35,284 nucleotides of DNA from positions 1 to 35,284 of the IMG/VR virus record IMGVR_UViG_3300005467_000102; one strand, written 5' to 3'. Each line of letters opens with the position of its first letter. The first letter of the stretch is position 1. The position numbers and the translations under genes were made by a program. The notes under the pieces are model-generated. The model had not been told where the DNA came from and did no database searches. It saw nothing but the letters and a program-made list of their open reading frames with translations. Of this stretch, positions 12,041-28,914 are shown piece by piece. The DNA comes from a virus.

Positions 12041-12453
12041 TAGTCTTCTCCGGTTTCAGGCTTTCGTAAGTATACAGTATATGGCAAGAGTTTCATTCCA
12101 TTTTCCACACAAATGTGGGCAATCCTTTCATTCTCCGCGAAGCTGTAGTAGGCACAGGGAACATTGTCCGCGATCTCGTTGATCTTCTCTATCAGTAGCA
12201 GGGCAACCCCCCGGTTGCGATAGTCTTCGCTGACCCAGATTGGCTCGAAGTGGGCCACAAGTTGGAGCACTCCACAACCTATGATGTCTCCGTTGGAGTC
12301 TTCGGCGACGGCTATCTGGCTCATAGGCGGTGCTGGAAGCTGGCCCCCGTTGGCGACAAACAGGAAGGCCAGCCGGTAGTATTCGTCGGGGGGTAGAATC
12401 CTGATCTTTACCTCGTTAGCTATCCACTCTTTTCTCTCTGGTTGGCTGCTCAT
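12040..12453 (-). CDS. GNAT-family N-acetyltransferase (137 aa)
   Basis: The fold signature is clear: IAVAEDSNGDIIGCGVLQLV (beta-3/beta-4), then WVSEDYRNRGVALLLIEKI, which carries the acetyl-CoA pyrophosphate loop R-x-x-G-x-A, and AYYSFAENERIAHICVENGMK, typical of motif B. It would transfer an acetyl group from acetyl-CoA to an amine; the substrate is unknown. It sits inside the virion operon with one-base TAATG overlaps on both sides, so it is made with the structural proteins rather than early. It may modify a virion protein or a late host target. Confidence 0.85.
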   Translation of the reverse strand: MSSQPERKEWIANEVKIRILPPDEYYRLAFLFVANGGQLPAPPMSQIAVAEDSNGDIIGCGVLQLVAHFEPIWVSEDYRNRGVALLLIEKINEIADNVPCAYYSFAENERIAHICVENGMKLLPYTVYLRKPETGED

Positions 12454-13388
12454 TAGATATTCCCCGTTTGCAGCTTAACATAAGCTGTGGCTATGGCTGT
12501 AGAGCCGGTTATGGAACCGAGGGTAGCGGGCAGGACTCCGGCTACACTGGCATTGGCAGCGGTTCCCTTCTGGGCGAAGCTCTGGTTCAACACGGCGTCG
12601 GCGGTTGCATCGTTATTAGCCGACCTGAAGGCGCCGGTAGTGTTGTCCATTGTTACTGCCAGCCAGTACCAGCCGGGGCCAATAGTCACCGCTCCAACGG
12701 TTGCTTCGATTGCTCCCGTTGCAGTCGTGCTCTGGGCTCCGCTGGCTACCAGCTTTGCGCCGGCTGAGCTGTAGACCCCGACTCCAAAGAGCCCGCCAGC
12801 GCTGGCTATCCCGATGTAAGCAGTTATCCGAGTAACGATCAGGGGTAGAGGTAGCAGGAACTTAAAGACCTGTACTTCATTAGCAGCCCCCATAGTCTGA
12901 TTGAAGTTCAAGCCATTCAGGGTTGCTGGAATAGGGAGCAGAATATAAGGATGATCCGCTGAGTCGAGCAGCGGGAAGTCAGCGCCTACAAGGTTCCTAA
13001 AGGTAGGGGCAGCAGCCGCACCGCTGGCTGGTCCTGCGAATACGACATTAGAGGCTTGGTTTATCTTAGCGAAGCTCAGGGCCGGAGTTGAGGTAGCCGT
13101 TGCTACGGTTGTGGTGAACAGTGGAGAAAGATTGCCCGAGCTGAAGATGGTAACTGTGCCGGGGTTTGAGACTGGCAAGCCAGGTAGGTTAGTAACGTTG
13201 AGTGGGGCTGAGCCACTGGCTTGTAGCTCGTTTCTGATACTGGCTGCATCGGTGGATTGGTTGGTTGTAGAGCCAGCGGCAGATTCAGCAATCCTCAGCC
13301 TTCGCCATAGTTCTCGAATAGTCTGATCTACAAGCCGGGGATTAAGGCTCTTGCCGTCGCCTGTAAGAATGGTTGGTTCATTGGGCAT
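12453..13388 (-). CDS. Probable tail fibre or fibre-tip protein (311 aa)
   Basis: The N-terminus has a charged helix (DQTIRELWRRLRIAE) suited to trimer formation. The rest is low-charge and rich in Ala, Gly, Ser and Thr with predicted beta strands, as in phage fibres (FSSGNLSPLFTTTV; GPGWYWLAVTMDN in a jelly-roll-like region near residue 230). There is no signal peptide, unlike the two larger fibres. The start has AAGG upstream. It is followed directly by the acetyltransferase. Host-recognition or adhesin roles are inferred from composition and location. Confidence 0.65.
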   Translation of the reverse strand: MPNEPTILTGDGKSLNPRLVDQTIRELWRRLRIAESAAGSTTNQSTDAASIRNELQASGSAPLNVTNLPGLPVSNPGTVTIFSSGNLSPLFTTTVATATSTPALSFAKINQASNVVFAGPASGAAAAPTFRNLVGADFPLLDSADHPYILLPIPATLNGLNFNQTMGAANEVQVFKFLLPLPLIVTRITAYIGIASAGGLFGVGVYSSAGAKLVASGAQSTTATGAIEATVGAVTIGPGWYWLAVTMDNTTGAFRSANNDATADAVLNQSFAQKGTAANASVAGVLPATLGSITGSTAIATAYVKLQTGNI

Positions 13389-13871: not shown

Positions 13872-13978
13872 GGCCGCTCCTGTATCAACCTGCCGCCACA
13901 AGTGCAGTGCTGCGTCCGCTCGGTTGACGGGAACCGGCGAGAGCACGCAACGCAGACGAAGTATTTAATAAAGCTCAT
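13868..13978 (-). CDS. Tiny zinc-ribbon protein (36 aa)
   Basis: The start lies in an ATGA overlap with the Cys-rich secreted gene before it, and the stop overlaps the next start in the same way. Cysteines occur as CVAC at residues 9–12 and CTC at 25–27, enough for a minimal zinc knuckle. There is no strong ribosome site, so it would depend on coupled translation. The Cys pairs and exact overlaps at both ends are the only evidence that it is a gene. Confidence 0.45.
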   Translation of the reverse strand: MSFIKYFVCVACSRRFPSTERTQHCTCGGRLIQERP

Positions 13979-14184
13979 GGCAATATGCAACCTGGGTCTG
14001 CCGTGCATCGCAACATGCAGTTACAGTAGCTCTGTTCGCAGACACTCGGCGGATACCCCGCCAAGCATCCATTGTAGAGTATCTCACACCGGGTCTCGCA
14101 GGTCGGCACTGGCCTGAATGCCGCAGTCAGCACGAGTAGGCTCAAGATTGCGATGAGTAGTAGTCGTCTTTTCATGGCAGTCAT
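13975..14184 (-). CDS. Secreted eight-cysteine mini-protein (69 aa)
   Basis: Residues 4–23 form a classic Sec signal (KRR, then LLLIAILSLLVLTAA). There is no lipobox. The mature part of about 45 residues contains eight cysteines (CETRC, NGC, SVC, SYCNC, LRC, PGC), an arrangement suited to four disulfides in the periplasm or outside the cell. The start is in an ATGA overlap with the preceding gene. It resembles no phage family I know; it could be a disulfide-rich inhibitor, a virion decoration or a surface blocker. Confidence 0.6.
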   Translation of the reverse strand: MTAMKRRLLLIAILSLLVLTAAFRPVPTCETRCEILYNGCLAGYPPSVCEQSYCNCMLRCTADPGCILP

Positions 14185-14513
14185 CCTAACACACCCACGT
14201 TCCTAGTACCCTCATAAAACGTCCCGCCGGACGCCTCAAACATTATCAGCGACTTCTTCCCCGCTACTCCAGTAATGACTCCATTGCCACTTAGCCCGGT
14301 TCCAAGCGTGATGACGCGCGGAAGAATCCCGTCATTAGTGATAAGTAGGGTCAGAGTCTGGCCGTCAATTGGCGTGTCGCCATTAAGATTGACCGTGCAG
14401 TTTTGGGCAGCCGTCCAAGCGACTTGATGATGTCGAAGTTTAGCATCGACGGTGACAGTGATCGTTGAGCCAGGGGTCGGGGCTATGACATTCACGCTAC
14501 TGGTTTTTGGCAT
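14181..14513 (-). CDS. Beta-rich small virion-type protein (110 aa)
   Basis: The ATG at 14513, with GAGAGG five bases away, is favoured over the GTG at 14516, which overlaps the fibre stop codon. The product is low in charge and almost all beta strand (STITVTVDA, VTLGTGLSGNGVITG). It ends in a segment like the C-terminal beta caps of phage fibres (SLIMFEASGGTFYEGTR). Directly following the GH43 fibre gene, it may be a fibre cap, fibre chaperone or accessory. Function inferred from position. Confidence 0.55.
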   Translation of the reverse strand: MPKTSSVNVIAPTPGSTITVTVDAKLRHHQVAWTAAQNCTVNLNGDTPIDGQTLTLLITNDGILPRVITLGTGLSGNGVITGVAGKKSLIMFEASGGTFYEGTRNVGVLG

Positions 14514-14515
14514 CA

Positions 14516-17446
14516 CTACCTCTCGGTGAATTCGTGAATGAAGTCAGTTCCGAAACGTTCATTAAGAAAGCGGGCAAGCTTCTCGATGTCGATGATAACG
14601 CGCCGCCCTGTGGTGGTGTACCTTGTGTCATGAACAAAGAAGCCGTCCTTGTCGTGACTAGAAATCTGCAAAGCCGTGCCTCCGGCATCTATCACGAACA
14701 TTTCACCTCCGCTAGCATAGAAACTCGCGCCATTTGTTAGTGTTCCTACGGGAGCAGTGCCGTTGAATAACGATAAAGTGTTGGTTCCTTCAGTTGTTCC
14801 GCGAGCGGTAGTCGCACCGAGCTTGACGTTTCCGCTCTTCTCAACCCTGAAAAGGCTAGAACTACCTATTTGCAAATCAAGTAAAGGAGAGCCCGCAGCG
14901 CTGGCAGTATTGGTGACGTTTAATCTAATCCCCTGAAGGACCGTACTGCCTTCGTTCCAAGTTCCCGCAATGTCCAAGAAGGGCCAACCTGCTTCGGTGA
15001 CGGTGCCACTGGTGATACTAATTGTATGCCGATTGGTTGTCGCAAAATATGTTGTAGTAAAATCATCGCTGACAATTCCAAACCCCATTGAGCCTATCGA
15101 AACATTATTCCCGGTTCCTCCGATCCTCAGCAGAGCGCCGTTATCAGTCTCGATTCCCTTCGTGTGCGCAAAGTGCAGATTACCATTGGAACTGTTAAAC
15201 AGAACCGTGGATTCACCTACAACTCCACCATTGTCGTAGAGGAGCTGCGCGGTAGTACCACCCGTGATCGTGGTAGTGCCAACCGTGAGCCCGCCGCCGC
15301 CTCCGCTCGCGCTCAACGTCGTGCCGGTCATCGTGAGGCCAGAACCGAGCGTGATTTCTTCAAAGTCGCCCGCGCCCGATGCTGAACCGCGTCCGACAAG
15401 CTTGCTTGCGGCAGTTGCCGGAACAAAGTTGGCAAAGGCTACGTCATTCAGCGCAGCCGAGAGAATCTTTCCCACTGAGTCAGTCAGCGTGGTCGGCCCC
15501 GAACCAGTCTTGAGCAGTCCACTGACTGTCAGATCATCAGCAAACGTAGCCTTCTTAGTCGAGAGGATTGTCAACGCGGTCGCCAGCGCGTTCAGCGATG
15601 AGCCGGTAGAGCCAGCCGGGGCGACCTTGAGGACCAGCGATCCGCCGATTCCCGTTCCTGTCCCCTGTGAGCCTGAGAGCGTGAAGTCCGCGCCTGCTAT
15701 GTTAGTCCCGCTGGCATTCTGCATGCTCAACGTTTGAGCAATCGGAGGATTTGCTGCGAGCTTCCCAAGCCTGAAGTTATCCGCCGCCGCACGACCAATG
15801 ATCGTGTCTGTCGAAGTAGCTCCGAGTATCAGGTAAGCATCGGCTCCGGTGCCGAGGTAAAGGTTCGCTCCTGAGATAACGTGAGAGGCTGAAACGACTG
15901 AGCCATTGGTTGTGGTGACAGCCGAAGCCGTGAAGGGACCGTTGACGCTTGAGTTCCGAGCCATGAACAAGCCAGCCATGTTTCTCAGTGCATCAACGTC
16001 TCTTATACGAATGATCGTTGGATGAACGATAACCCCCGGTACTGTAATAGCAGTCAAGGCTCCCCAAGTGGAGCCGCCATCGGTTGACTCCGCGTACTTG
16101 ATTCCGAGTGAGGGAAAATGATCGACGTAGAGCCGGTAGGTATTGGTTCCGGTCTGAACGATGTTCGGCCCCTCGATCGTGTTTCCCCAAGAGTTCCAGT
16201 CACCCGTATGGAGCGCAGTATAGCCGCTAGTCAAGCTGGTCGAGGTCGCAACCTCAATGAAGGAGTTTGTCGGCTGATTGCTGTACCAAAGTTGATAGTT
16301 AGAACCCAGCTTCAGGATAAAGGGATCAATCGCGCTGACCGGAATTCCAGTGCCAGTCACCGTAACCGGAGTGCTCCATGTAGTCATCGCCACATTGGTA
16401 GGATGAACCTCATGAATCTGATACGAGACGCCGGTGTCAATGCTGGTTGTGACGAAGATGTGAATCGAACCATCGGTGTCCACGAACCACTCGGGCGCGT
16501 AGACCCGATTTACACCTGTCACTGCCGACATATCAACGCTCTGAACAAGCGTCCAGTTGGAGAGATCGGGAGAGCTTATGACATCGAAGGTCGTACCGCC
16601 AAAGTTATTCGTATGAGCAACCCAGTATAGACCACCACTTTTCATGATCGACGGATCACGAACTATCGAGGGGCTGACTGGCGTGTAGACCGCACCTGTC
16701 GTTGGATCGTTGCTGTTCAGGAAGTTGAAAGTCTTGCCGTCGTTCGAGGCAACAAGGTAGAGAGCCTGGGTATTAGTGAAGCAGGAAGCAAGGTAGATTC
16801 CTTGGCCTTCCGTGTTCAGGGCACCGAGAGACATAAAGCCTTGAACATCGAGAGCAGAAGCAGGGGCTGTAGTGCCGATGCCGAGCCTCTTGTTGGTGGT
16901 ATCCCAGAAGAAGGTAGCGTTATCTTGAGCCAGAACCGGCCCCGCTCCTATGAAGGGAATAGAGCCAGTTGTTCCGCTGGTTACAGTGCCCCCGATGGAC
17001 ATGCTGCCGCCACCGCTTCCATTAGCCGCTGCTGTCAACCTGCCCTTTGAGTCCACCGTTATGTTGGCACTCGTGTAGCTGCCGGGGGTTACAGCGGTGT
17101 TGGCCAAAGTAGTCGCCATAGAGCCGCTGGTGGTCACGTCGCCGGTGAGATTGCCCACGGTTATGTCAACACCACCGTTGCCCTTGATTAGCTGATTGGC
17201 TGTAAGAGTTCCTGTATGAGTAACGCTTCCGGTTCCGGCGCCGGGACCAGCAGTAGTCCATGTGTTAGCTGAGGTGCATATCTTCAGCAAACCGCTGGAC
17301 GTGTTGAAGAAGATGTTGTTGCCGCTGGGCTGGCAAACAGCAGGATCGCTAGTCCCGAATGCAATCTTTCTAGCAGGCCCGCTGACCTGTGCTGAGGCAC
17401 TGATCGAGAGCAGCAGGATTGTGACGATCCAGAGTAGACGTTTCAT
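14516..17446 (-). CDS. GH43-like glycosidase tail fibre with Sec signal peptide (976 aa)
   Basis: Residues 1–20 are a textbook Sec signal ending in SASAQ. A collagen-like/beta fibre region (70–200) leads into a five-bladed propeller over about 225–485 with the GH43 triad in order: D264 in RDPSI, D374 in IDPFI and E425 in EGPNI, plus YAPEWF. The triad looks intact, so the domain may cleave arabinan, xylan or similar surface glycan. Fibre repeats follow (600–900), then a charged C-terminus. GH43 enzymes are normally single domains of 300–550 residues; this is a fusion to fibre repeats. It probably acts as a receptor-degrading fibre, but the signal peptide is unexpected for a cytoplasmically assembled virion protein. 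TAATG-coupled to the gene before it. Confidence 0.8.
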   Translation of the reverse strand: MKRLLWIVTILLLSISASAQVSGPARKIAFGTSDPAVCQPSGNNIFFNTSSGLLKICTSANTWTTAGPGAGTGSVTHTGTLTANQLIKGNGGVDITVGNLTGDVTTSGSMATTLANTAVTPGSYTSANITVDSKGRLTAAANGSGGGSMSIGGTVTSGTTGSIPFIGAGPVLAQDNATFFWDTTNKRLGIGTTAPASALDVQGFMSLGALNTEGQGIYLASCFTNTQALYLVASNDGKTFNFLNSNDPTTGAVYTPVSPSIVRDPSIMKSGGLYWVAHTNNFGGTTFDVISSPDLSNWTLVQSVDMSAVTGVNRVYAPEWFVDTDGSIHIFVTTSIDTGVSYQIHEVHPTNVAMTTWSTPVTVTGTGIPVSAIDPFILKLGSNYQLWYSNQPTNSFIEVATSTSLTSGYTALHTGDWNSWGNTIEGPNIVQTGTNTYRLYVDHFPSLGIKYAESTDGGSTWGALTAITVPGVIVHPTIIRIRDVDALRNMAGLFMARNSSVNGPFTASAVTTTNGSVVSASHVISGANLYLGTGADAYLILGATSTDTIIGRAAADNFRLGKLAANPPIAQTLSMQNASGTNIAGADFTLSGSQGTGTGIGGSLVLKVAPAGSTGSSLNALATALTILSTKKATFADDLTVSGLLKTGSGPTTLTDSVGKILSAALNDVAFANFVPATAASKLVGRGSASGAGDFEEITLGSGLTMTGTTLSASGGGGGLTVGTTTITGGTTAQLLYDNGGVVGESTVLFNSSNGNLHFAHTKGIETDNGALLRIGGTGNNVSIGSMGFGIVSDDFTTTYFATTNRHTISITSGTVTEAGWPFLDIAGTWNEGSTVLQGIRLNVTNTASAAGSPLLDLQIGSSSLFRVEKSGNVKLGATTARGTTEGTNTLSLFNGTAPVGTLTNGASFYASGGEMFVIDAGGTALQISSHDKDGFFVHDTRYTTTGRRVIIDIEKLARFLNERFGTDFIHEFTER

Positions 17447-17787
17447 TAGGCGACCTCACCCTCGAAGTGGAACTTTAAGCTGTTGGCTGAGCCTCTGATC
17501 CAGTAGTCATGAGTCTCTTTGTTATTAAGTAAATTCCCGCTACCCACCGTCCAGTCATCGCCGGGGCCAAGAAGGATGCCGTAGACCGTTGAGCTTACCC
17601 CGGCAGGGCCGATGTAGATATCCCCAGCGTTGGCCGGATCAGCGGTGAGCGTCCAGCCCGAGTAGCGAGCAGAGGCTCCAGCATCGCCTCCGGTTCCTGC
17701 GCCAGCGACGGCTTTGATGCAGTCGCTCAGCCTATGGGATATGCTATCAGCAGGTAATGAAATTGTTCCCTTGTAAGGTCTAGCCAT
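17446..17787 (-). CDS. Small beta-rich virion protein (113 aa)
   Basis: First gene after the 186-base gap, with a strong AAAGGAG site before ATG 17787. The sequence is Gly/Ala-rich with strands (DIYIGPAGVSSTVYGILLGPGDDWTVGSG) and ends in YWIRGSANSLKFHFEGEVA, a jelly-roll-like pattern common in small tail or decoration proteins. Its stop overlaps the fibre start by TAATG, suggesting that the two are made in proportion and may interact. No specific family. Confidence 0.6.
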   Translation of the reverse strand: MARPYKGTISLPADSISHRLSDCIKAVAGAGTGGDAGASARYSGWTLTADPANAGDIYIGPAGVSSTVYGILLGPGDDWTVGSGNLLNNKETHDYWIRGSANSLKFHFEGEVA

Positions 17788-17870
17788 CAGGAAGCTCCTT
17801 TGGGGTTAAGCGTGGGCCGGATTAAGTGTTCGTACCGAAGCTGAAAAGATCATCTAAGCCTCCAGCCCAC

Positions 17871-17886
17871 GACCGCGATTGTACCA
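17871..17886 (-). promoter_or_regulatory. Candidate extended -10 promoter
   Basis: Reading leftwards, TGGTACAAT (17886–17878) matches an extended -10 element (TGnTATAAT with one mismatch) and lies just after the likely terminator. Transcription would begin near 17871, about 84 bases before the small virion gene at 17787. No convincing -35 box is visible, as is usual for extended -10 promoters. It would start a separate transcript for the fibre and ejection-protein genes. Confidence 0.45.
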
Positions 17887-17889
17887 CAA

Positions 17890-17960
17890 AAATCTAAGGG
17901 GCAGAGAGCTTTCTCGTGGCAGGAACCAGAATAGGCGCATAGTTCTAACTCTGCCCCCTT
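17890..17960 (-). terminator. Probable rho-independent terminator with large loop
   Basis: The segments 17896–17906 and 17949–17960 are inverted repeats (AAGGGGCAGAG / CTCTGCCCCCTT), making an 11-pair GC-rich stem with one bulge. Read leftwards, the stem is followed by TTAGATTTTTG. It lies directly after the stop of the nozzle-like gene at 17974. The loop of about 40 bases is long and may fold further. The same gap has a second inverted pair (GTGGGC near 17812 and GCCCAC near 17866) in the leader of the next gene. Confidence 0.5.
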
Positions 17961-17973
17961 GCTCGGCAGTCTA

Positions 17974-20900
17974 TCATATTGCAGCGCCTTTGACTCGGCT
18001 AATGTCGCCAAACGGTTTCACAGTAACGTAGCCACCGCCTGCCCCCCATGACCGGAATCTTATCTCCAAATCTTTCTGAAAAACCCGAAAGCCCGCCGCC
18101 GAAACCAGCTTAAAAGTAACCGACTTGAACTTTCTGGCCTGAGTCACGATGTAGGTTTTCTTGTAGACCCCAATGCCGTGGTTGATGGTATAGGTATCCG
18201 TTATCGGAGCATTTGTTCCATCATCCGTGATGATTGAGAACGTCAGATTAGCCGTGCTGATATGGGCTATCTGGACTTCTCTGATGTGCAGAAAGCCTGT
18301 TCCATCCAGCGTAGTAGGTTGGGTTATCCAGTCAGTAACCAGCTCAGGCGAGGGCTCGAAGACCCAGCGCCACTTGAACAGCTTCCAAGGGTCGGAGTCG
18401 TTGCCGAGGATTCTGACCAAGTGAGCGATGAACGGGGTTGCAAAACTGTAAGCCTGCTCGCTTCTGCCGTTGTGCTGGATGATGGCCAGCGTTCCAGCTT
18501 GAGTAGCCATCACTCCGTTGGTTCCAGTATCGGCTTGGATCAGGATAGACTTGGGAACGTTGCCGGTGTCGGCTTCGATGATGATGCCCTGAACAAACTT
18601 CGCCCCATCGTAGCCGAGATCATCCATGTCTGTAGCGCGTAGTGCTGAGTCTTCCGGCCGGGGGAGCCACGAGGGTTCCCAGCCGAACAAGGAGCCTTGG
18701 CCGTTCCAGCTAAGGCTGAGGATGATGTTTCTAGCCTGAATCCCGTTACCGCTGTTTAGGTCTTCAATCTGCTGCGTTCGGCTTGCCGAGATAGCCAGAT
18801 TGGTCAGTGGAGTAGTAGCCGGAATATTGTCGAACCCAGCACTGGCCGCTATAGCAACGCTGCTCAGATAGTCAACGATCAGGTCAGCCCAGACCTTCTG
18901 GGCTCTGAAATCTCCGGCGTCGAAGGCTCCGGTTTGCAGGGCACAGCTTATAGGTGTTCCGGCATCAGTCAACGCTGTTTGTAAGAACTGATAAAGCCTT
19001 CCGTCGCTTCCACCAAGTAGAACCGATCGCACGCCTCGGCCTTCTTCCTGATAGTGAGTACAGGCCATCGGCGTGTAGGCATCGTAGCTCCAACCGTTGA
19101 GCAGGGTGTTGTAGACCAATGTATGACGCATTCCAGCAAGGTCAACGAAATCGTAGTAGAGCATTCCATCGGCGTAGTTCAGGTCCATCGAGTTAGGCTG
19201 GCTGAAATCAGGTGGTGAAATACCGTTGACAGCTACACCGGGTTGACCGTCATGGGGGAACAAAGGATAGAGGTCAGAGGTAATGAGCTGAGGCTCGGCG
19301 CCGACTGTTTCATAGATGCCATCTTGGGCTATGAACCACATCTTGGGGCCGACTGCGAGGGCAAAGCGGGCGAACAACCCTTTGCCGTTTGGTATCTCAT
19401 TTGGTCTTGCGGTGAGCCGGTTGGTCAATGGGTCCGGCTCCATCGAGATAGCCCACATTCGTTGGGTTGACCAGACATAGGCTCTGCCATCGTAGACACA
19501 GCCATTCATCAGAGGTTCACTGGGACTGGTTATTTCAACCTGGTTCTTCTCGTCTGCGCTATCGGGGTCGTTGCCGTTGGTCCAGAACAATGTGCCTGGT
19601 TGGTTAGGGGCACCACAGGCGAACATGAACACGCCTCCAATGCCTTCGCCGAATGGCCCCCACATAGCAGGCAACGGTTGGCCTTGAATCAGTGCATCCG
19701 GGATGAAGAAGCTGACGCCGCCTAGAGTGCCAAGGTTCTCTACGGTTTCAAGCAGGATCGTGGATATAACTCTATAGATAGTAGCTGGAACTCCATTAAC
19801 GATAACCTGTGATCCAGCAGCCCAGTTGACGTTGAACGTGTCTCCCCCGGTACGACTGACCGAGGTTCCGCTGACGTTGCAGGTTCCGGTTCTCGGAATG
19901 TCACTTAGCGGGAAGGGCTGGAATTTTCCGAAATCGATCCTTGGGTTTGAGGCTATAGAGTCATCTGGAAAGTCATCGTTGAACACGACTCCGGTGTTGG
20001 GGCCGGTGCCGAGGTAAATCCAGTCGTTGAGAGAGCCCCCAAAGCGATACCAGTCTACTTTGTCAACCTGAGCATCGGCTGAAACAGTAGCAACAAGCTG
20101 GACTCTCTGACGCTTGGGCAACACCCCGCTTCGAGTAGCCGGTGATGGATAAGACCGAGCGCCGCTCTCGCTTGCTCTGTAGACGTAGCGATATAAGTAG
20201 GGCGTGCCGATGTCGCCGGTGTCTGGGCCAAAGGTTCCGCCTATCCACCATGAGTCGAAGATTACATTGGCGGCGGCGGTAGATACCACTAACAACCGCA
20301 GAGCCTTAATGTCCTTCAGTCCTACTGTAGAATCTGATCCTACTCGTATAAGCTCCCCCACCTTGATTTTGAACAAGGTTCTTTGTATGTCCCCAGAGAC
20401 ACCACTGGTAGATGAGGGATCGGGGGTTACAACCGGGGGATCGATAAAGCCCCCATCACCACCGCCTCCTGCAAGCTCGTCTATCCTTGCCTGAAGATTC
20501 CTGAGTCTTCTGGGATTAGCATTCCGCTGGGTTAGCTTGGCTAGTCTGTTCTGTAGCCTCGCCCTCGTTTGAGCAATGCTTTCATCTGCGCTGGTAGGTG
20601 TTTCGTCCACGATCTTCTTGGTGATAATCTCCGACTTCGTATCAACCGCAGAGCTTGCTTGGTTTAGCGTAGAAGTAAGATCAGAAGGCCGCAGGGTTCC
20701 GATGAAATAGTTCTGGGTAAAGTTATTTGTAGACTGATCGCAGTCCAGCATAACCTGGACTTCCGTGGTGCGAGCAGGCTCAGTAAAGGTGACTATAATG
20801 TTGATCTCGTCAGTGTCCTGTACGACTCTGCCACTGATGTTTGAGAGGTCCAGTGTGATAATTCGATCAGCATAGCCGGTTCCGGCAGCAGCCATTGTCA

Positions 20901-21966
20901 GTTTGACGGACATCTGGTTCAGGATGTCTCCAGAAGCAGAACCCCCACCTATGTAGGTTCCAGCCAGAAAGACCCTAAAGGAAGTAAGACCTGTTATGGG
21001 TTCTCCTGCCACATGGTTCAGGGTTGTAGAGCAACGAATGCTGGGGACATCATCAGGGCCAATGGAAACAGAGAGCACTCGAACGACTTCGGTGTTGATC
21101 TTTATCAAGGCATTCGGGCTGGTCCTGTGATGAGAGGGATGGCTGACTACTATGGTACAGAGTCCAGTTGAGCCCCCATCATAGGTAATGGAAGAAACCG
21201 TTCCGCTTTTCATCGCAGGCAGGACTTCTTCTATGACTGCATTTTCGTTAGCTGCGCCGTGGGCGAAGTTGACATAGGAGCCTGCAACCATGCTGTTCAG
21301 AAATGTTGTTGGATTGATAGAGGCCCAGCCGGTTGAGCCGGTATCGTAGAGGATGTTTTCTATGAAAGTGCTGGCTGTTGGAGTGCTGAGGGAGCAGTTA
21401 GTTGGGGTGTAACTGGCGCTCGACCTCAAGGTATCAATGGTTGCCCTCGTTGGCCCCGGAAAGGTTGGGATCGCAACTCCACCTAAGCCTGTTGGCGGCG
21501 CACTCGGGGGTGCGGTGCCTTGATTCCTGAATGTTCCAGATACGTTTATCTTCCCACTCTTGCTCGCATCCCCGATATACATCCAGGGCTCGGGGGATTG
21601 TTCTGGCCTGAAGGGAACAAGTGAAAGCGGTCTGCCACTGAAGCCACTGGCTCTCAGGGTGTAGGCGTTGTGGGCTCCGTTGTCGCTATAGAGGCTGGTT
21701 CCAGCACCAACTACTCGGGCGAAGCTCTGGGTTGCAGATGGAAGGTCGTTGTTCAGCCGGCGAACCGAATGGACTATCAGGTCGGCCATTGCTGAAGCGT
21801 TGATGGCGGTTAAGCCCGGTCTGGTGTCCAGCCTGCCGAGGACGAATTGGCGGAGGTTCTGGTAGATAGCTAGTTCAGAGCTGTCCAGCTCATCTATCGC
21901 CTTGGCGAGTTGCAGGCCACGAACCGCGAATCTCTGGGTTGCCCTGCTATGGCGAGTTGCGCTCAT
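17974..21966 (-). CDS. Large tail nozzle-like (tail tubular protein B type) structural protein (1330 aa)
   Basis: A 1330-residue soluble protein with no signal peptide. The C-terminal ~700 residues have the repeated blade pattern of propeller-type nozzle proteins (FARFALAVGPKMWFIAQDGIYE; GMRHTLVYNTLLNGWSYD; VRSVLLGGSDGRLYQFL), which in podoviruses form the narrow end of the tail. A charged coiled segment (about 455–515) and Pro/Gly linker interrupt the middle. It is much longer than T7 gp12 (about 800). It follows a connector-like gene with an ATGA overlap, as adaptor and nozzle genes usually do. Assignment is from pattern and context; a portal-proximal fibre or stopper is the alternative. 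Confidence 0.6.
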   Translation of the reverse strand: MSATRHSRATQRFAVRGLQLAKAIDELDSSELAIYQNLRQFVLGRLDTRPGLTAINASAMADLIVHSVRRLNNDLPSATQSFARVVGAGTSLYSDNGAHNAYTLRASGFSGRPLSLVPFRPEQSPEPWMYIGDASKSGKINVSGTFRNQGTAPPSAPPTGLGGVAIPTFPGPTRATIDTLRSSASYTPTNCSLSTPTASTFIENILYDTGSTGWASINPTTFLNSMVAGSYVNFAHGAANENAVIEEVLPAMKSGTVSSITYDGGSTGLCTIVVSHPSHHRTSPNALIKINTEVVRVLSVSIGPDDVPSIRCSTTLNHVAGEPITGLTSFRVFLAGTYIGGGSASGDILNQMSVKLTMAAAGTGYADRIITLDLSNISGRVVQDTDEINIIVTFTEPARTTEVQVMLDCDQSTNNFTQNYFIGTLRPSDLTSTLNQASSAVDTKSEIITKKIVDETPTSADESIAQTRARLQNRLAKLTQRNANPRRLRNLQARIDELAGGGGDGGFIDPPVVTPDPSSTSGVSGDIQRTLFKIKVGELIRVGSDSTVGLKDIKALRLLVVSTAAANVIFDSWWIGGTFGPDTGDIGTPYLYRYVYRASESGARSYPSPATRSGVLPKRQRVQLVATVSADAQVDKVDWYRFGGSLNDWIYLGTGPNTGVVFNDDFPDDSIASNPRIDFGKFQPFPLSDIPRTGTCNVSGTSVSRTGGDTFNVNWAAGSQVIVNGVPATIYRVISTILLETVENLGTLGGVSFFIPDALIQGQPLPAMWGPFGEGIGGVFMFACGAPNQPGTLFWTNGNDPDSADEKNQVEITSPSEPLMNGCVYDGRAYVWSTQRMWAISMEPDPLTNRLTARPNEIPNGKGLFARFALAVGPKMWFIAQDGIYETVGAEPQLITSDLYPLFPHDGQPGVAVNGISPPDFSQPNSMDLNYADGMLYYDFVDLAGMRHTLVYNTLLNGWSYDAYTPMACTHYQEEGRGVRSVLLGGSDGRLYQFLQTALTDAGTPISCALQTGAFDAGDFRAQKVWADLIVDYLSSVAIAASAGFDNIPATTPLTNLAISASRTQQIEDLNSGNGIQARNIILSLSWNGQGSLFGWEPSWLPRPEDSALRATDMDDLGYDGAKFVQGIIIEADTGNVPKSILIQADTGTNGVMATQAGTLAIIQHNGRSEQAYSFATPFIAHLVRILGNDSDPWKLFKWRWVFEPSPELVTDWITQPTTLDGTGFLHIREVQIAHISTANLTFSIITDDGTNAPITDTYTINHGIGVYKKTYIVTQARKFKSVTFKLVSAAGFRVFQKDLEIRFRSWGAGGGYVTVKPFGDISRVKGAAI

Positions 21967-23294
21967 GCCGCTGCAATCCTCATAGGTCTTCGATCAGCTT
22001 CTCTCTGGCTCTGAGAGCGAAGCTCGTCTTCAAGCTGGGCCTGTGCTCTAAGTCGGTCATTGTTGTCCGCAGCTAGTCGGAGCATGTTCTGGGCTAGCGG
22101 CATTGTAGCTTCCCACTCAGCGCCGCCTTCCTTGAATCGAGCAAGGTATTCAGCGTAGTCCAGCACTACGTCAAGGTGTTCTCTAGCAAGCTGAACCTGC
22201 GCTGCATCGTTAGCTGGAATGGGAGCGTTGCGAATGCAGTCTATGGTTACGCTGGAAGCAGCAGAGGGAACAGGGGAGAAGCCGATCAGGTTCAAGCCTG
22301 CCATTGCACCTACCGTTGGAGTTCCACTGTTAGTCGCTATCGTCTGCCAACCAGGGTTCATTGCGTCGAGGGACTGGAGATCAACAATCGGGGTCTGTGC
22401 CCCATTGACTTCAAGGTTCAGAACAGAGCCGGTTATCTTGGCTATCATTACGCCTTCGGCGTAGCGTTGCTCTGCATGAGCTGCGCGAGCAGGATCTCTG
22501 GCTTCGCCGTCTCTGCTTAGAAGGTCAGCAAGAGCACCGAACTTTATAGCCCAAGCAAAGTCGTCTGGAATTCCAAGGTCAACTCCGGTTGCTACATCGA
22601 GAGCCTGGCCAGCATTGATGGTCAGCAGATGGATAGAGCCGTTGGCATCTGGGATTGGGCCAAGCTGCAAGGTTATCGGAGGAACTACGATCGTAGAGTA
22701 AACCTGTGGGGTTCCACCTGTGGTTGCCCAGCCCACTAATAACGAGTTCAACTGCCTCTCATCAGAGCGCCAGAGCGTTGAGTAGACGTTATCGAGGTTC
22801 TTCCAGACAGCACGCCGGACATCTATGATTGAGTCGTTCAGGGGGACTCTGCCGTCGAACGGTGAGCCAGCCGCAATCTCAGAGGCCGTTATAACGCATC
22901 CAGTTTCGAGAAGGAACTGATCTCGGCGTCTTTGGATGGCCTTGACCAGATCGTCCATGGAGAACTGCTCTGTGCCGCCCCACGTCGTTGATGAGCTGAA
23001 GTCGTTGACTGGCTCCATCAAGGCATACTGTAGGTCGTTTACGAGATCACGGTCGGTCAAGGTTCTTGGAATGAGAGAACCAGTAACGTTGGCGAGATCG
23101 TAGAACGGCGTAGCCGCCGTGTGGTTGAACGTGAACCGGCCCCGCTGAACTGTAGACATAGATTGCCATGTTCTAAGAGCTTCCTTGAGCACGGAGCGAA
23201 GGTGGCCTTGAGGGAAGAAAACCATGCCGCCATCCGCCAGCCGTGCTGCAAGCTGGCTTTGCATCTGGCTGAAGTTCAAGTAGGCATATGGCAT
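21963..23294 (-). CDS. Tail/connector-type structural protein (443 aa)
   Basis: The N-terminal 100 residues (helix LRSVLKEALRTWQSM, then a beta segment ending in FYDLAN) resemble the opening of the 323-residue adaptor further right in this window, in pattern rather than identity. The central part is mixed alpha/beta and the C-terminus is a long charged helix (ARFKEGGAEWEATMPLAQNMLRLA…QLEDELRSQSQREADRR). It is probably part of the head–tail or tail ring, coupled by ATGA to the nozzle-like gene. No enzyme motif. Confidence 0.5.
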   Translation of the reverse strand: MPYAYLNFSQMQSQLAARLADGGMVFFPQGHLRSVLKEALRTWQSMSTVQRGRFTFNHTAATPFYDLANVTGSLIPRTLTDRDLVNDLQYALMEPVNDFSSSTTWGGTEQFSMDDLVKAIQRRRDQFLLETGCVITASEIAAGSPFDGRVPLNDSIIDVRRAVWKNLDNVYSTLWRSDERQLNSLLVGWATTGGTPQVYSTIVVPPITLQLGPIPDANGSIHLLTINAGQALDVATGVDLGIPDDFAWAIKFGALADLLSRDGEARDPARAAHAEQRYAEGVMIAKITGSVLNLEVNGAQTPIVDLQSLDAMNPGWQTIATNSGTPTVGAMAGLNLIGFSPVPSAASSVTIDCIRNAPIPANDAAQVQLAREHLDVVLDYAEYLARFKEGGAEWEATMPLAQNMLRLAADNNDRLRAQAQLEDELRSQSQREADRRPMRIAAA

Positions 23295-23298
23295 GAGT

Positions 23299-23637
23299 TC
23301 AGGGCTTCTTTACATCAGTGCCGATGGAACCTTTGCTGGTTGGGCTGTCTCCCACCACTATGTCCTTGGATGGAGCCGGGGGCATAAAGCTCATCGTCTG
23401 TAGATCAATCTGCCATGTCTCATCGACCTTGCACTTCACCCGAGCTTTCAAGAGAGCAATCTGAAAGTCCTTGTTTGCATCGACCACGGCTTTATAGGCA
23501 TCGATCACGGCTTGGCGCTCTGCAACAGGGATTGCAATCGGGGTAGCCACGGCGACAGCCGGTTTCTCATCAGCCCTTGTAGGCAGGGAACTATATACTC
23601 CAAGCAGAAGCAGAATAACCAATAGTTTAAGCTTCAT
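23299..23637 (-). CDS. Secreted small protein with signal peptide (112 aa)
   Basis: Residues 1–22 are a Sec signal (KLKLLVILLLLGVYSSLPTRA) with probable cleavage before DEKP. The mature protein is a helix (AERQAVIDAYKAVVDANKDFQIALLKARVKC) followed by a polar tail. A clear AAAGGAG site precedes ATG 23637. It lies between the spike gene and the connector gene in the same operon. One cysteine, no lipobox. It may be periplasmic and assist the secreted spike, or act in lysis; neither is shown by sequence. Confidence 0.6.
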   Translation of the reverse strand: MKLKLLVILLLLGVYSSLPTRADEKPAVAVATPIAIPVAERQAVIDAYKAVVDANKDFQIALLKARVKCKVDETWQIDLQTMSFMPPAPSKDIVVGDSPTSKGSIGTDVKKP

Positions 23638-23648
23638 CGTTTCTCCTT

Positions 23649-26600
23649 TTAGTTCACGCTTCTTGCTACTTCATACCAATTAGTTCCGCTCTTGACAAGG
23701 GTGATTGAGTCATCGGCTGTTGTAACAAAGTTGCCTGCCAGCTTTAGGTTTGATCCGTCTGTAAAGGTAAGAACCCCATCGAAGATGAGGGTAATGGTAG
23801 TACCATCTATAACCCCGGCTGCATCGACACTTGTTATGGTAGTTGTGCCCGTAACGTGAAATGAATTACCTGTGGGGGCTATAGTAGCTGCGCTGGCAAC
23901 ATTGGCCCCCTGGTATAGATTGGTTATTCCTGATGGATTTATTCCCAGTTTTAGATTGGCCGTGATCGACCCTAAGGGATTCCCAAGCCTGGTGGCTGAC
24001 TGGTAAATGCCAAAGTCCCCGAAGGCAACGTTATCTGTACGCAAAGCCCAGTTGCGAGTGCCTGTGTTAGAATTGTTGCTATAGAAATCCAAGCGTTCCG
24101 AACTGGCATCTGTTAAGCCTTCAACTCTAAGAGCAAAGTCTGTACTGTTGCTATAGACATGAAGTGGCGTAGCAGGAGCATTGGATGCACCTATTGCTAC
24201 TAAATCACGGAATGATCTAATACCCCCTAACAACCCTACATCAGTGCGAAATCGGATGTTTGCGGAATCCGTTGGGATAGTCTCACCATCAACAGTTGCA
24301 AAGGTATCAATATCAATTCCCCGCCCAGTAGTAGGTGCCCAAGTTGCTAAGTCCTCTAACTTGGTGATGGAACCATGAAGGCTGTCTATCTTGATGGATT
24401 GGGGAAAAGTTGGCTGACTGGCAATGGGCCGGATTTGGATTTCCCCAACTAATCCTATAAAGGTGTCACTGTCTGTGAAACCAAGCCTAACTCCGATATT
24501 CGATCCGCCTTGTAAGGTAAACCTTACTCCATCTAGCGTGAGCTGTGAAATACTTCCTGTTGGTGCAACGTTGATGCCCTTTGATCCTGCTATGCTTGAA
24601 TTAGCATAGAAGTTTCTGACTGTTGGGGCATTGGCCAGGTCAAAGTCTCCTGTAGGGTTTGGATTGTAATGATCGATGACGAGGGCGAAATCTTTATGGT
24701 TGATAACCTTCGCATCATAAATCATCAAGCCTTCGGCACCAGTTGAACTGATGGCGGTGTTGGCAAGAGAGTTGGCGTCGAATAATAGGTGCTCGAACCT
24801 TATACCTCCTATCGGCCCGGTAACGGTGAACATTGTTCCACCGCTTGCCCCGGTCCACTTGAAGCTAGACGGATTGACTGCCCCGGCCATGTTCAGCAGA
24901 TGACCACTGGCCCCTCGGATGACAACGTTATGCCGAGTCGATGCAGTCGTGGAGGTTCCATTTCCAATCGTGATGTTTGAAGCGATAGCGATGGTCTTGC
25001 CTTGGGGAACTTCTATAGTTCCCCCAGCAGCAGGAATCGTTGTACTGATCAGAGTAGCCAGAGCAGCAGAGTCATCGGTTGTTCCATCACAGGTTAGATA
25101 AGCACAGGCATTGTAGACTGCCCCACCCTTATCATAGATTGGGCCAAATAGGTTTCCTGTAGTCAGTTCCAGCTTGTTGCTGCTAGCAGTCAGAACTGGA
25201 TCGGTGCCGGATAGATCAAAGGTAATAGTTCGGCTGGCTTGAGTACCGTCGAACAGGTTGAAGCTGGCAACCTGTGTAGCTGGCGTCCAGCTAAAGGTAG
25301 GATTCCCGCCTGTTCCGTCAGTGTTGGTGATGCCCATGCCGGTTCCAGCCACGAAGCTACGAGCGGCGAAGGCCCCAGCAGAGCTTTGAACAATCCACCC
25401 GAGCGATGTACCAAGGGATGCGAGGGCGTCTGCGGTGACGGAGCCAGTGCCGATCTTGGCTAGCTTGCCGGTGGTGTCTACTCTGATTCCATTGGCAGTG
25501 CCCCCGGCTGTTACCTGGAATGGATTGACTGTTGAGGTTGAGAGCGTATCGATAGCAACCAGCAGCGGAGTACCTGCTGCTGCTGATGCGGTGTTCTCGC
25601 CTATTCTCCAGCCTATCTTGCCACTGGTTGTGAGAGTCCACTTCCAGATTTGAGCGTTGTCGCCGCTGTTCAGAGTGTTGGAAGTAGTAGCTGCGGTTAT
25701 ACTGCTGAGAGCCGTTGCAGCCGAGCCCGCACAGGAACCGAATGTCGGTACGCCTCCATCGGTTGCTTGTAAACAGAGGGTTCCAGCACCGCCTGCTGCC
25801 GTGGTGATGAACTTGGAGCCGTCGTAGTAGAAAGCTCCATTGGTTGAATAGCTAGCACTGGTTGTGTTGGTTCCACCCCGAGCAAGGCTGAAGACACCAC
25901 TGCCGATTGCTGCTGTGTCGAGAGGGCCCCCGCCTGCTGCGTTCTGGTGGCTATGCTGGGCTCCGGTGAAGTCGCCAATGTTGGGAGCAACCAGCGTCTT
26001 GTTTGATTCTATCTGGCTCTCATTAAGGTTAACAACGGTACGGTTAACTCCGTTGGCTCCATATTCCAGAGTATTGCTGGTTGAGTCATAGGCTAAGCGG
26101 CCACTGACCGTTGGATTTGCGCCCCCTGCAACTGGGATTGTAAAGGAAGAAGCAGCAGAGAAATCCTGAGCCCCTGCGCTGAACGTGTTGCCTTGATCGG
26201 TGTAGACGGTTGTGCCAAGGGTTCTGGTTTTGGCGAGCGTTCCAGACCAGCCCATCGTGAACGTGTGAACTGTGCCTACGCTATTGATTCCCAAGGTTAC
26301 ATTAACGTCATTGCTATTGGAGAAGGTCTGGCTTGCTCCGGTGAGTCCGTTCAGAGATGTGATGCCCGAGCCAGCGCCGCCCCCGATGGCTCCCCATACA
26401 CCGGCTTGGAAACCGTTGAACTGGCCAGTGGTGCTGTTGTAGATGAACAGGCCATTGGCCGGGGAAGAGATCGCATCGCGTTGAGTCGTGGTCAGCCGAG
26501 GAGGAAGCAAGCCTTGGGTTGTGGACGTTAGATCGAGCAAGGCTGAAGCAGCAGGGCTGGTGTTGTTGATGCCGATGCTAACGGTGTTGTCGGTGATCTG

Positions 26601-27044
26601 GCTGTTGGTTATAGACGAGGTTCCAGACCACTTTGGAACCCGGCCACTGGTGCCCGAGCCGCTGAGCGGAGACGAGGAGGCATCAGCTATCTTGACGGTT
26701 CGGATCGTTGTGGCTGAGAGCCCGGAAGCCGTTATCGAAACGTCATAGCTCCCGTTGTTGGCATAGAAGGCCCAGTAGCCGGTTGTGGCATCGGCAGTGA
26801 AAGGATTGGCTTTGGGCGTCCCAGCGCCGTCGCTGAAAATGGTCGAGAGGTTTGTCGATCCGGCGTCGAACACACTGACGGTACAGCCTACATAGGTTCG
26901 CTGGACCTTTGTAGACGATGACACTCCGTTGGTGACAACTGACTGCCCGCCCTTTTCACAGAAGCCGGTTACGGGGCTTTGAGCCGAGGCCCAGGGGGAT
27001 AGACAGCAGAGCCAGAATAGAAGTAATCCAAGCCGCTTTTTCAT
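23649..27044 (-). CDS. Pectate-lyase-like beta-helix tail spike with Sec signal peptide (1131 aa)
   Basis: Residues 1–22 form a Sec signal ending in ASAQ. A conserved N-terminal beta region (25–125) is followed by fibre repeats with a GLLPPRLTTTQRDAI motif (about 178–192). Residues 640–880 begin with CDGTTDDSAALATLI and VPQGKTI, the entry motif of pectate-lyase-3/phage-spike beta helices. The C-terminal ~90 residues (TGNSFHVTGTTTITS onward) are a beta cap. It is likely a glycan-binding or depolymerising spike. It shares an NTASAA(A)G(S/T)PLL repeat with the GH43 fibre, showing a common modular origin. It overlaps neither neighbour but lies within 12 bases of both. Confidence 0.8.
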   Translation of the reverse strand: MKKRLGLLLFWLCCLSPWASAQSPVTGFCEKGGQSVVTNGVSSSTKVQRTYVGCTVSVFDAGSTNLSTIFSDGAGTPKANPFTADATTGYWAFYANNGSYDVSITASGLSATTIRTVKIADASSSPLSGSGTSGRVPKWSGTSSITNSQITDNTVSIGINNTSPAASALLDLTSTTQGLLPPRLTTTQRDAISSPANGLFIYNSTTGQFNGFQAGVWGAIGGGAGSGITSLNGLTGASQTFSNSNDVNVTLGINSVGTVHTFTMGWSGTLAKTRTLGTTVYTDQGNTFSAGAQDFSAASSFTIPVAGGANPTVSGRLAYDSTSNTLEYGANGVNRTVVNLNESQIESNKTLVAPNIGDFTGAQHSHQNAAGGGPLDTAAIGSGVFSLARGGTNTTSASYSTNGAFYYDGSKFITTAAGGAGTLCLQATDGGVPTFGSCAGSAATALSSITAATTSNTLNSGDNAQIWKWTLTTSGKIGWRIGENTASAAAGTPLLVAIDTLSTSTVNPFQVTAGGTANGIRVDTTGKLAKIGTGSVTADALASLGTSLGWIVQSSAGAFAARSFVAGTGMGITNTDGTGGNPTFSWTPATQVASFNLFDGTQASRTITFDLSGTDPVLTASSNKLELTTGNLFGPIYDKGGAVYNACAYLTCDGTTDDSAALATLISTTIPAAGGTIEVPQGKTIAIASNITIGNGTSTTASTRHNVVIRGASGHLLNMAGAVNPSSFKWTGASGGTMFTVTGPIGGIRFEHLLFDANSLANTAISSTGAEGLMIYDAKVINHKDFALVIDHYNPNPTGDFDLANAPTVRNFYANSSIAGSKGINVAPTGSISQLTLDGVRFTLQGGSNIGVRLGFTDSDTFIGLVGEIQIRPIASQPTFPQSIKIDSLHGSITKLEDLATWAPTTGRGIDIDTFATVDGETIPTDSANIRFRTDVGLLGGIRSFRDLVAIGASNAPATPLHVYSNSTDFALRVEGLTDASSERLDFYSNNSNTGTRNWALRTDNVAFGDFGIYQSATRLGNPLGSITANLKLGINPSGITNLYQGANVASAATIAPTGNSFHVTGTTTITSVDAAGVIDGTTITLIFDGVLTFTDGSNLKLAGNFVTTADDSITLVKSGTNWYEVARSVN

Positions 27045-27046
27045 GA

Positions 27047-27538
27047 TCAGTGAACGTAGGCTTTACCCCAGACTGGGCGCTTGGCGAAGTCAGCTATTGG
27101 GTCATGGCTGGGACGAGAGGTGGCTGAGATAACGGGAGCCGGGGCGTGGTTGGCGAACAGCGACAACGCAATGTCTACCAAGCCCAGAGCAGCCATGATT
27201 CCAGCCCTTACGCTTTCGTCTTTAAGCTGCGGAATATCGTGGGCAATGATGTCATCCAGCAGCCTGATGGACTCAGAGAGATAGCCTCTGATCTCAGTAG
27301 CCGTGCTGGTTGCTACCGTGTCTCTGAGCTTCGTGGCTATGGTCAGCCCTTGGTCGATCTTGGGCAAGGCGTTTGGTAGAAACTGAGAGATCAACGGGCG
27401 AGCTTTGCCAAGGCCGGTGATGATGTCGCTGGCATACATCACAAAGTTGTCCTTGCTTGAACCGGGTGTGTTGGTCTTCGGAGCACAGCTTGCCAGCAGC
27501 AGCGTGAGCACCAACGGAAGGATCGATAGTTTTCTCAT
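27047..27538 (-). CDS. Outer-membrane-type lipoprotein (163 aa)
   Basis: The N-terminus carries a lipoprotein signal with lipobox LLASC (Cys18), so the mature protein should be lipid-anchored. The rest is helical (SDIITGLGKARPLISQFL; ATKLRDTVATSTATEIRGYL), with a C-terminal flexible tail. A strong AGGAG precedes ATG 27538, which is in an ATGA overlap with the putative holin-like gene. Phage lipoproteins of this size can be o-spanins or surface-exclusion proteins; proximity to membrane genes favours lysis or exclusion, but the choice is open. Confidence 0.7.
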   Translation of the reverse strand: MRKLSILPLVLTLLLASCAPKTNTPGSSKDNFVMYASDIITGLGKARPLISQFLPNALPKIDQGLTIATKLRDTVATSTATEIRGYLSESIRLLDDIIAHDIPQLKDESVRAGIMAALGLVDIALSLFANHAPAPVISATSRPSHDPIADFAKRPVWGKAYVH

Positions 27539-27837
27539 GGGTTTCTCCTTTGTGTAATGTCATCCTTGTTGACATTCACTACTTGGCTTTGAACCGCTTC
27601 AGGTGGTGGCGGGTTGTCGGATTTTATAACCGCCGCACTCTTTCCAAAATCCGTGATGCCTTGGGCACCGATGAGCACACCGAAGATAGTAATGATCGTG
27701 GTTACATCTTCTGGGGCCAGAACGATATTGTGCTTGGCAGCGAAGGCAGCAAGCATTCCGGCTAGGGCAGTAATGACCTTAGCCGAGGTTAGAAGGCGTT
27801 TGAGGGCTTCGATGAGCCGTTCGGTGAAGGTGTTCAT
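27535..27837 (-). CDS. Holin-like small membrane protein (100 aa)
   Basis: The start MNTFTERLIEALKRLL at 27837, with AGGAG just upstream, is far better than the in-frame GTG at 27957, whose extension overlaps another membrane gene. Residues 16–75 contain two hydrophobic stretches (AKVITALAGMLAAFAA; TTIITIFGVLIGAQG), with a charged C-terminal tail, a topology seen in class II holins and phage_holin families. It shares ATGA with the lipoprotein gene and TGATG with the preceding membrane gene. A holin role is plausible, not proven. Confidence 0.55.
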   Translation of the reverse strand: MNTFTERLIEALKRLLTSAKVITALAGMLAAFAAKHNIVLAPEDVTTIITIFGVLIGAQGITDFGKSAAVIKSDNPPPPEAVQSQVVNVNKDDITQRRNP

Positions 27838-28058
27838 CAGCCTCCTATGGGGAATCCAAAGGTTGCAAGGCCAAGCAGCAGGAACAGTATGAAGATCAGG
27901 AAGTGCCCACCAATGTTCGGGTAGACCGCACCTGCTCCACCCCGAGGCCAGTACCACACGAAGCCGAGGATGATCCAGAGGAGCATGATGAGCCAGAAGA
28001 TGAAACCAATGCTCATCTGACCACCGCCTTCTCGAAGCAACAGTAGTAGGATTGGCAT
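27837..28058 (-). CDS. Two-pass small membrane protein (73 aa)
   Basis: A strong AAGGAG site lies before ATG 28058. The product is nearly all membrane: IGFIFWLIMLLWIILGFVWYW and HFLIFILFLLLGLATFGF, joined by a short Gly-rich loop. The short hydrophilic N-terminus and TGATG coupling to the next membrane gene suggest a holin/antiholin-type pair, but many phages carry such proteins of unknown role. It begins right after a likely terminator, so a new promoter may lie nearby; none is evident. Confidence 0.6.
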   Translation of the reverse strand: MPILLLLLREGGGQMSIGFIFWLIMLLWIILGFVWYWPRGGAGAVYPNIGGHFLIFILFLLLGLATFGFPIGG

Positions 28059-28070
28059 AAGCTACTCCTT

Positions 28071-28098
28071 AGAAGCGAAAGGGGTGGCCCGCCACCCC
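28071..28098 (-). terminator. Rho-independent terminator-like hairpin
   Basis: Bases 28081–28098 are a perfect inverted repeat (GGGGTGG / CCACCCC with a 4-base loop). Read leftwards, it starts just after the stop codon at 28106 and is followed by TTTCGCTTCT, a weak U-rich run. It would attenuate transcription between the coiled-coil gene and the membrane-protein genes. Confidence 0.6.
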
Positions 28099-28105
28099 GA
28101 TCTGG

Positions 28106-28495
28106 TTACGCCGGCTGGTCGTCGGCTGCAAGGTCAGTCGTGCTCTGAACGAGAGCGGCTGTTGCGGCGCCGATTGCATCGTTGTTTGCGGTGATCCGGT
28201 CGGTTGCAGCCATCACGCCCGCTTTGAGTTGATCCAGGTTGGTAGCGTTAGCTACGAGGTCTGCGACTTGCTGAATCTCCTTGGTGATTGCATCGGTTGC
28301 AGCCGTGGATGCGGTTTGGAACGCCGTAAGCGCCTCGGCCTGGGCGTCGAGTTTTGCATTAAGATCATCGATTTCTGCCATGATTTTCCTCTGCTCCTTC
28401 TTTAGTTGTTTGACTTCGCGTTGAATGTGTTGCACGACTGCAAGAATTTCTTGTAGAACGTCCTGATTGCCGCGCTTGGTTGTAGCAGTGGGCAT
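28106..28495 (-). CDS. Coiled-coil protein with possible internal start (129 aa)
   Basis: ATG 28495 has GGAG eight bases upstream; the GTG at 28513 would give six extra residues. Residues 15–85 form a continuous coiled coil (QHIQREVKQLKKEQRKI; LNAKLDAQAEALTAF), and the C-terminus is Ala/Thr-rich. A second ATG at 28381 with its own AGAGGAAA site would give a 91-residue short form. No enzymatic motif. It ends at a terminator-like hairpin. Possibly a virion or lysis-associated helix bundle. Confidence 0.6.
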   Translation of the reverse strand: MPTATTKRGNQDVLQEILAVVQHIQREVKQLKKEQRKIMAEIDDLNAKLDAQAEALTAFQTASTAATDAITKEIQQVADLVANATNLDQLKAGVMAATDRITANNDAIGAATAALVQSTTDLAADDQPA

Positions 28496-28509
28496 TGTCG
28501 TTACTCCGG

Positions 28510-28914
28510 TCACTTGCTAGAGAACAGCTTCACGATTGCACCGCCGATGACGCCCGCGATGGGCACCACGACGAGCATGATTCCGATGAGCCTGTTGTGG
28601 GCCTTTTCCATCGCTTCAATCCGTCTTTTCAATCCCTCGATTTTCTCATCTGCGCGTTCAAAGGCGGCATCCTTAGCCGAAGCATTTTGCTTGATCCAGT
28701 CTTCATACTTGTCCAGCGTAACGTAGGTATGAGCCGTTTCTACAGCCTGCTCGTGGGCGTGGTTGAGGCTGTTCAGCCGCCGCTCGTATTCCTTCGCCTG
28801 CAACTTGAGCGCACGGCGAACAGACCTGCTCTCTGACTTCCACAGCCTGTTGAAGTGCATGTGGAGCGTGTCTATACTCCACCCGCTCACATTGCGTTCT
28901 GTCTCGCCGCTCAT
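28510..28914 (-). CDS. Coiled-coil protein with C-terminal membrane anchor (134 aa)
   Basis: A charged helical body (RRALKLQAKEYERRLNSLNHAHEQAVE; ERADEKIEGLKRRIEAMEK) leads into a single C-terminal hydrophobic helix (LIGIMLVVVPIAGVIGGAIVKLF). This layout resembles XhlA/haemolysin-type holin accessory proteins of phages. AGGAGC precedes ATG 28914. The neighbours are other membrane and coiled-coil genes. It is tail-anchored in the inner membrane with the helix in the cytoplasm, by inference; the lysis role is tentative. Confidence 0.6.
   Translation of the reverse strand: MSGETERNVSGWSIDTLHMHFNRLWKSESRSVRRALKLQAKEYERRLNSLNHAHEQAVETAHTYVTLDKYEDWIKQNASAKDAAFERADEKIEGLKRRIEAMEKAHNRLIGIMLVVVPIAGVIGGAIVKLFSSK

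Follow-up and report, generated by a model that had tools for sequence, protein, structure and literature searches.

The window, a 35,284-base IMG/VR virus record, carries a tightly packed virion operon on its minus strand. Five genes in this operon encode proteins with strong N-terminal export signals, four predicted to be of the Sec/SPI type and one a predicted lipoprotein (Table 1), and all five lie where an earlier note on this DNA had placed them. A 61.5-kb contig (L001, also G001) is near-identical to the window and represents a near-complete sister genome. The 1330-residue protein of the operon served as a query for relatives, and the key virion proteins of further relatives fall into two identity ranges, 75-99% and 34-39%. 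Among cultured phages, the podoviruses Tunturi 1 and 2 of Tunturiibacter, a member of the Acidobacteriota, come nearest, with ∼30% identity in the capsid protein (PMC11924767).

Table 1. Features of the virion operon and their coordinates in the window (the last residue before the predicted cut is followed by Q in both large proteins).
Feature	Coordinates	Strand	Remarks
311-residue signal-less protein with fibre-type repeats	12453..13388	-	signal score -12.5; phrog_9625 (7e-7), function unknown
69-residue mini-protein with Sec signal	13975..14184	-	signal score 20.0; mature form of 47 residues with 8 Cys
GH43 fibre	14516..17446	-	signal score 23.1; MKRLLWIVTILLLSISASA followed by Q, fibre N-domain, GH43 domain, C-terminal part
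Predicted Sec/SPI signal peptide of GH43 fibre, 19 codons	17390..17446	-	
1330-residue signal-less virion-operon protein	17974..21966	-	signal score 1.7; position matches Tunturi gp31
112-residue exported small protein, adjoins spike	23299..23637	-	signal score 19.8
Spike	23649..27044	-	signal score 28.1; MKKRLGLLLFWLCCLSPWASA followed by Q, tailspike head-binding domain, long C-terminal part
Predicted Sec/SPI signal peptide of spike, 21 codons	26982..27044	-	
Mature N-terminal head-binding-like domain of spike	26685..26981	-	Cys pair 29/54
163-residue lipoprotein	27047..27538	-	signal score 18.2; lipobox LASC at residues 15-18

Signals were scored with an n/h/c-region log-odds scorer of our own rather than with SignalP, applied to every plausible gene of the window; seven textbook E. 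coli signals, used as reference, score 13.6-25.3. The five proteins score 18.2-28.1, and every other gene in the window scores at most 6.4, save two (16.4 and 11.1) that encode hydrophobic membrane proteins. Of 7200 trials with shuffled proteins, 74 (∼1%) gave a score above 10. The comparison across all genes of the window rules out chance or a transmembrane-helix artefact as the source of the signals. Mis-called starts are ruled out by operon coupling and the lack of downstream starts: the starts of the GH43 fibre, spike, mini-protein and lipoprotein overlap or abut the stop of the preceding gene, AAAGGAG ribosome sites precede the 112-residue protein and the lipoprotein, and no other in-frame ATG, GTG or TTG occurs before codon 53 of the GH43 fibre or codon 41 of the spike. 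The Sec/SPI proteins thus have an n/h/c signal with an AXA site at the true start. The claim that five virion-operon proteins carry Sec or lipoprotein signals is therefore confirmed, the prediction failed for neither large fibre by this scorer, and the SAQ endings reported for two of the proteins correspond to the predicted ASA/Q cleavage sites of the GH43 fibre and the spike.

The GH43 fibre matches Pfam Glyco_hydro_43 over residues 255-437 (E 1.4e-11) and the tail-protein family phrog_18920 (1e-27). Searches of the PDB with phmmer gave no match for this fibre or for the 1330-residue protein, and Pfam and PDB phmmer searches gave none for the spike. The mini-protein is likewise without match in family and PDB searches; its homologue in L096/L112 is 85% identical, bears a signal, keeps all eight cysteines and adjoins a signal-bearing GH43 fibre. 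The 112-residue protein is possibly a periplasmic helper, and its homologues adjoin the spike in L003/L007 and L006, with a signal, and in L004, where the signal was not scored. The lipoprotein is 88% identical in L003/L007, with the lipobox retained. No lysin domain was found in the five proteins (Pfam, phrog), and none of them qualifies as a SAR or canonical exported endolysin. The two large proteins have no Pfam match to an autotransporter or T9SS C-terminal domain, a search in which divergent domains may be missed. The 311-residue repeat protein, which lacks a signal, is a possible cytoplasmic short fibre or adaptor.

Other genes of the window deserve mention in their own right. On the plus strand, positions 846-3722 encode a family A DNA polymerase (Pfam DNA_pol_A 5.5e-22) to which a uracil-DNA glycosylase domain (Pfam UDG 5.7e-19) is fused, an arrangement found too in the sister genome and in related phages. 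On the minus strand, a LAGLIDADG-type endonuclease gene (34287-34946; Pfam 7e-5) adjoins the head genes, and a 1521-residue virion-type protein (5356-9921) has a Peptidase_M15 domain at its N-terminus and is probably ejected, carrying a cell-wall enzyme. A GNAT acetyltransferase gene (12040-12453, minus strand; Pfam 2e-6) lies within the tail block; Tunturi 1, 2 and 3 and BUCT555 likewise have acetyltransferase genes interspersed with their virion genes. Directly upstream of the lipoprotein and spike is a cluster of holin-like and coiled-coil/transmembrane genes (27535-28914, minus strand; the holin matches are weak), and fibre and lysis genes thus stand side by side, as in Tunturi 1.

A domain alignment of the mature spike N-terminus (A1) recruited 48 IMG/VR viral loci. 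A Sec signal directly precedes the domain in 44 of them (43 as they stand, and L049 after trimming of its long n-region), counts that are inflated by sequence relatedness and not independent. Median pairwise identity is 32% for the signals against 47% for the N-domain, and Q stands at +1 in 26 of 39. The signals have therefore diverged relative to the domain while their grammar was retained, which indicates that function rather than sequence is under conservation. Many large fibre genes nearby bear signals as well: another signal-bearing gene lies within ∼6 kb at 22 of 38 non-redundant signal-bearing loci, compared with none of the four signal-less loci (p 0.04, kinship ignored). The idea that these are prophage or bacterial genes within viral contigs was rejected; one genome scan with narrow patterns gave a single remote relative, signal-less, in an alphaproteobacterial MAG.

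The search for the same signals in related fibres, proposed in the earlier note, thus succeeded at most loci. That note would have taken relatives that lack the N-terminal signal and keep the rest as evidence against its claim, and four such loci exist (L029, L040, L041 and L051/L010), in which the domain begins at or near residue 1. Since the other 44 keep the signal, the trait appears to be gained or lost rather than spurious, and the four exceptions indicate that the tail design does not require export. In L010/G002, of which the whole 73.6 kb was covered, the homologue of the GH43-fibre N-domain is also without a signal, so the trait is modular and, in that genome, all-or-none. On the predicted signals, the signal is retained even where the N-terminus has been swapped. 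One case is L096, which has the GH43 and C-terminal part in common with the window fibre (66%), carries a different 300-residue N-terminus and still bears a signal. The other is Tunturi 4 gp114 and Tunturi 1 gp17, both signal-bearing and 47% identical from gp17 residue 390 on; the signal is joined straight to the common part in gp114, and ∼370 additional residues lie between them in gp17.

In the cultured podoviruses Tunturi 1 and 2, signals are present on gp12, 13, 14, 16 and 17, which form one fibre block. The siphovirus Tunturi 4, unrelated to these two, carries them on the fibre proteins gp111, gp113 and gp114. The annotated start of gp111 seems to be wrong: an upstream ATG adds 119 residues that include the signal (PP885687 80076-80433; L074:30076-30433). 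Signals are absent from Tunturi 3 and from the fibre cluster of Tunturi 5 (first 50 kb covered), and the trait is therefore not universal on Tunturiibacter. Nor is it a universal trait of phages with diderm hosts, which is ruled out by the signal-less fibres of the Bacteroidota phages B40-8, crAss001 and phi38:1 (parts covered) and contradicted by Stenotrophomonas phage BUCT555 as well as by Tunturi 3 and the Tunturi 5 cluster. Scans of viral sequences gave no result for either Tunturi gp14 or gp114.

Cysteine content provides further evidence for export. Exported proteins are documented to favour even cysteine numbers (PMC7678975). Even counts occur in 47 of 56 clusters of signal-bearing proteins of at least 200 residues (p 1.3e-7), compared with 56 of 108 when proteins encoded at these loci lack a signal (p 0.39). 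Cysteine density is 1.87% with a signal and ∼0.7% without. A cysteine pair in the N-domain is present in 40 of 45 signal-bearing homologues and in none of 7 signal-less ones (Fisher 6e-6, kinship ignored). Within the window, the mature spike (6) and mini-protein (8) have even counts and the GH43 fibre (3) and the 112-residue protein (1) odd ones, so parity is informative for the group rather than for single proteins. As a group statistic it strongly suggests that signal-bearing proteins pass through an oxidising compartment, and real export of these proteins is well supported by the sequence data. Taken together, the signals and the disulfide-type cysteine patterns indicate extracytoplasmic maturation of these virion parts, a departure from the textbook phage. 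The suggestion of a system operating outside the cytoplasm is accordingly upheld by the signals in most relatives, the even-cysteine parity and the conserved cysteine pair.

A link to the virion comes from the domain that follows the spike signal. In hmmsearch, a profile of spike residues 22-140 matched PDB tailspike chains of 9vyg, the cryo-EM tailspike of cyanophage Pan3 (E 1.5e-4), and 7eeq, the head-binding domain of the Pam1 tailspike (E 0.004). An AF2 model of the N-domain (pLDDT 82) placed the same entries on top in Foldseek (E 0.0065-0.012, prob 1.00), and VIA Z scores were 9.1 to 9vyg, 8.6 to 7eeq and 7.6 to P22 1lkt; because unrelated Ig-like folds reach Z 7.9, the P22 match is insufficient by itself. 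Signal-less tailspikes of Serratia, Erwinia and Oceanospirillum phages start with the same domain as the mature spike. The spike gene sits in the virion/tail gene block and occupies a similar position in L010, L004 and L029. The only large fibre-type proteins of the sister genome are the two that bear signals, the 311-residue repeat protein being a possible exception. With a Sec signal followed by a mature N-terminus like the Pan3 and Pam1 domains, the spike seems both exported and built for virion docking.

We therefore consider it probable, at roughly 60%, that Sec exports the spikes, that they fold and become oxidised in the periplasm, and that they attach to virions when the cell lyses or later. 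Both large adhesins would be tailspikes routed through the host Sec pathway, from which signal peptidase would remove about 20 residues. In the periplasm the mature spikes would then fold and acquire their disulfides, away from the capsids and tails built in the cytoplasm, until failure of the inner membrane at lysis allowed spikes and virions to mix and the N-terminal head-binding domain to dock the spike onto the tail. The mini-protein, the 112-residue protein and the lipoprotein may be envelope-side helpers or factors of lysis or exclusion. The signals, their true starts, their persistence in relatives and the head-binding-domain match can be read at the sequence level; docking on the virion at or after lysis is what we infer from them, as the reading that joins the evidence for export with that for head binding. 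Of the earlier proposal that tail fibres are assembled after export, the export stands and the proposal fits best, given that the exported spike starts with a head-binding domain, while incorporation into the virion is the step we infer. More broadly, we lean toward the view that in a large group of tailed phages the virions are finished outside the cytoplasm: Sec-exported tailspikes, oxidatively folded in the periplasm, would be mounted on released particles at lysis, and the signal and the cysteine content would come and go together.

The main alternative is that these proteins are exported and never bound to the virion, acting as periplasmic or released enzymes or adhesins in which the fold of the head-binding domain has been put to another use. 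They could serve in receptor destruction, in release of progeny from debris or in a block to superinfection. The signals and cysteine parity are compatible with this, as is the GH43 domain of the fibre; secreted adhesins share the Ig-like/CnaB fold class, and the signal-less 311-residue protein, a possible fibre, could act as the receptor-binding protein. The co-exported lipoprotein also points this way, such lipoproteins being typical of exclusion or lysis genes. Against it, the nearest matches of the domain are virion-bound tailspike domains, the spike lies among tail genes in signal-bearing and signal-less relatives alike, and the sister genome has no other large fibre gene, which together make this alternative unlikely. 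A second alternative, that the signals are real and little used during infection, with spikes assembled in the cytoplasm as usual and export minor or late, draws on the existence of same-domain relatives without a signal; the even-cysteine parity and conserved cysteine pair that follow the signal, and its retention across N-terminus swaps, make it improbable. That the hydrophobic N-terminus stays uncleaved, as a membrane anchor or a membrane-active virion part, would suit the high hydrophobicity of the signals and is very improbable, given AXA/Q sites that are clear across very different signals and a following domain that forms the extreme N-terminus of signal-less tailspikes.

If Sec-exported spikes do join virions at lysis, an assembly step of tailed phages held to be cytoplasmic would be divided between the two sides of the inner membrane in a widespread group of soil phages. 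This would account for disulfide-rich tailspikes, and mixed infections could share spikes. It would also change how receptor-binding proteins are recognised in uncultivated phages, because annotation tools may class them as secreted bacterial proteins. Searches of an open-access literature library found no description of exported or signal-bearing tail fibres. The cultured Tunturi 1, 2 and 4 make the export reading testable now.

Several known systems resemble the window in part. The fibre blocks of Tunturi 1, 2 and 4 carry the same kind of signals; their products are annotated as tail fibre, tail spike, pectin lyase or hypothetical, and no mention of signal peptides or mass spectrometry was found in the main text of that paper (PMC11924767). 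Exported endolysins, such as fOg44 Lys44 and the SAR endolysins, are like the window spikes late phage proteins exported by Sec before lysis (PMC6116005). They are, however, lysis enzymes and not tail adhesins, and SAR signals remain in the membrane, unlike the cleavable AXA type of the window spikes. The GH43 part of the window fibre shares ∼31% identity over 314 residues with gp22, a minor tail protein of Propionibacterium phage E6, which, unlike the window fibre, has no signal (score -11). The podophage tailspikes P22 gp9, Pam1 and Pan3 are alike to the mature spike in N-domain profile, predicted fold and position among tail genes. The known head-binding-domain tailspikes of this type are produced in the cytoplasm and mounted there, and in P22 free tailspikes attach in vitro to completed particles. 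The window spike differs from them in being preceded by a Sec signal and in being rich in cysteine.
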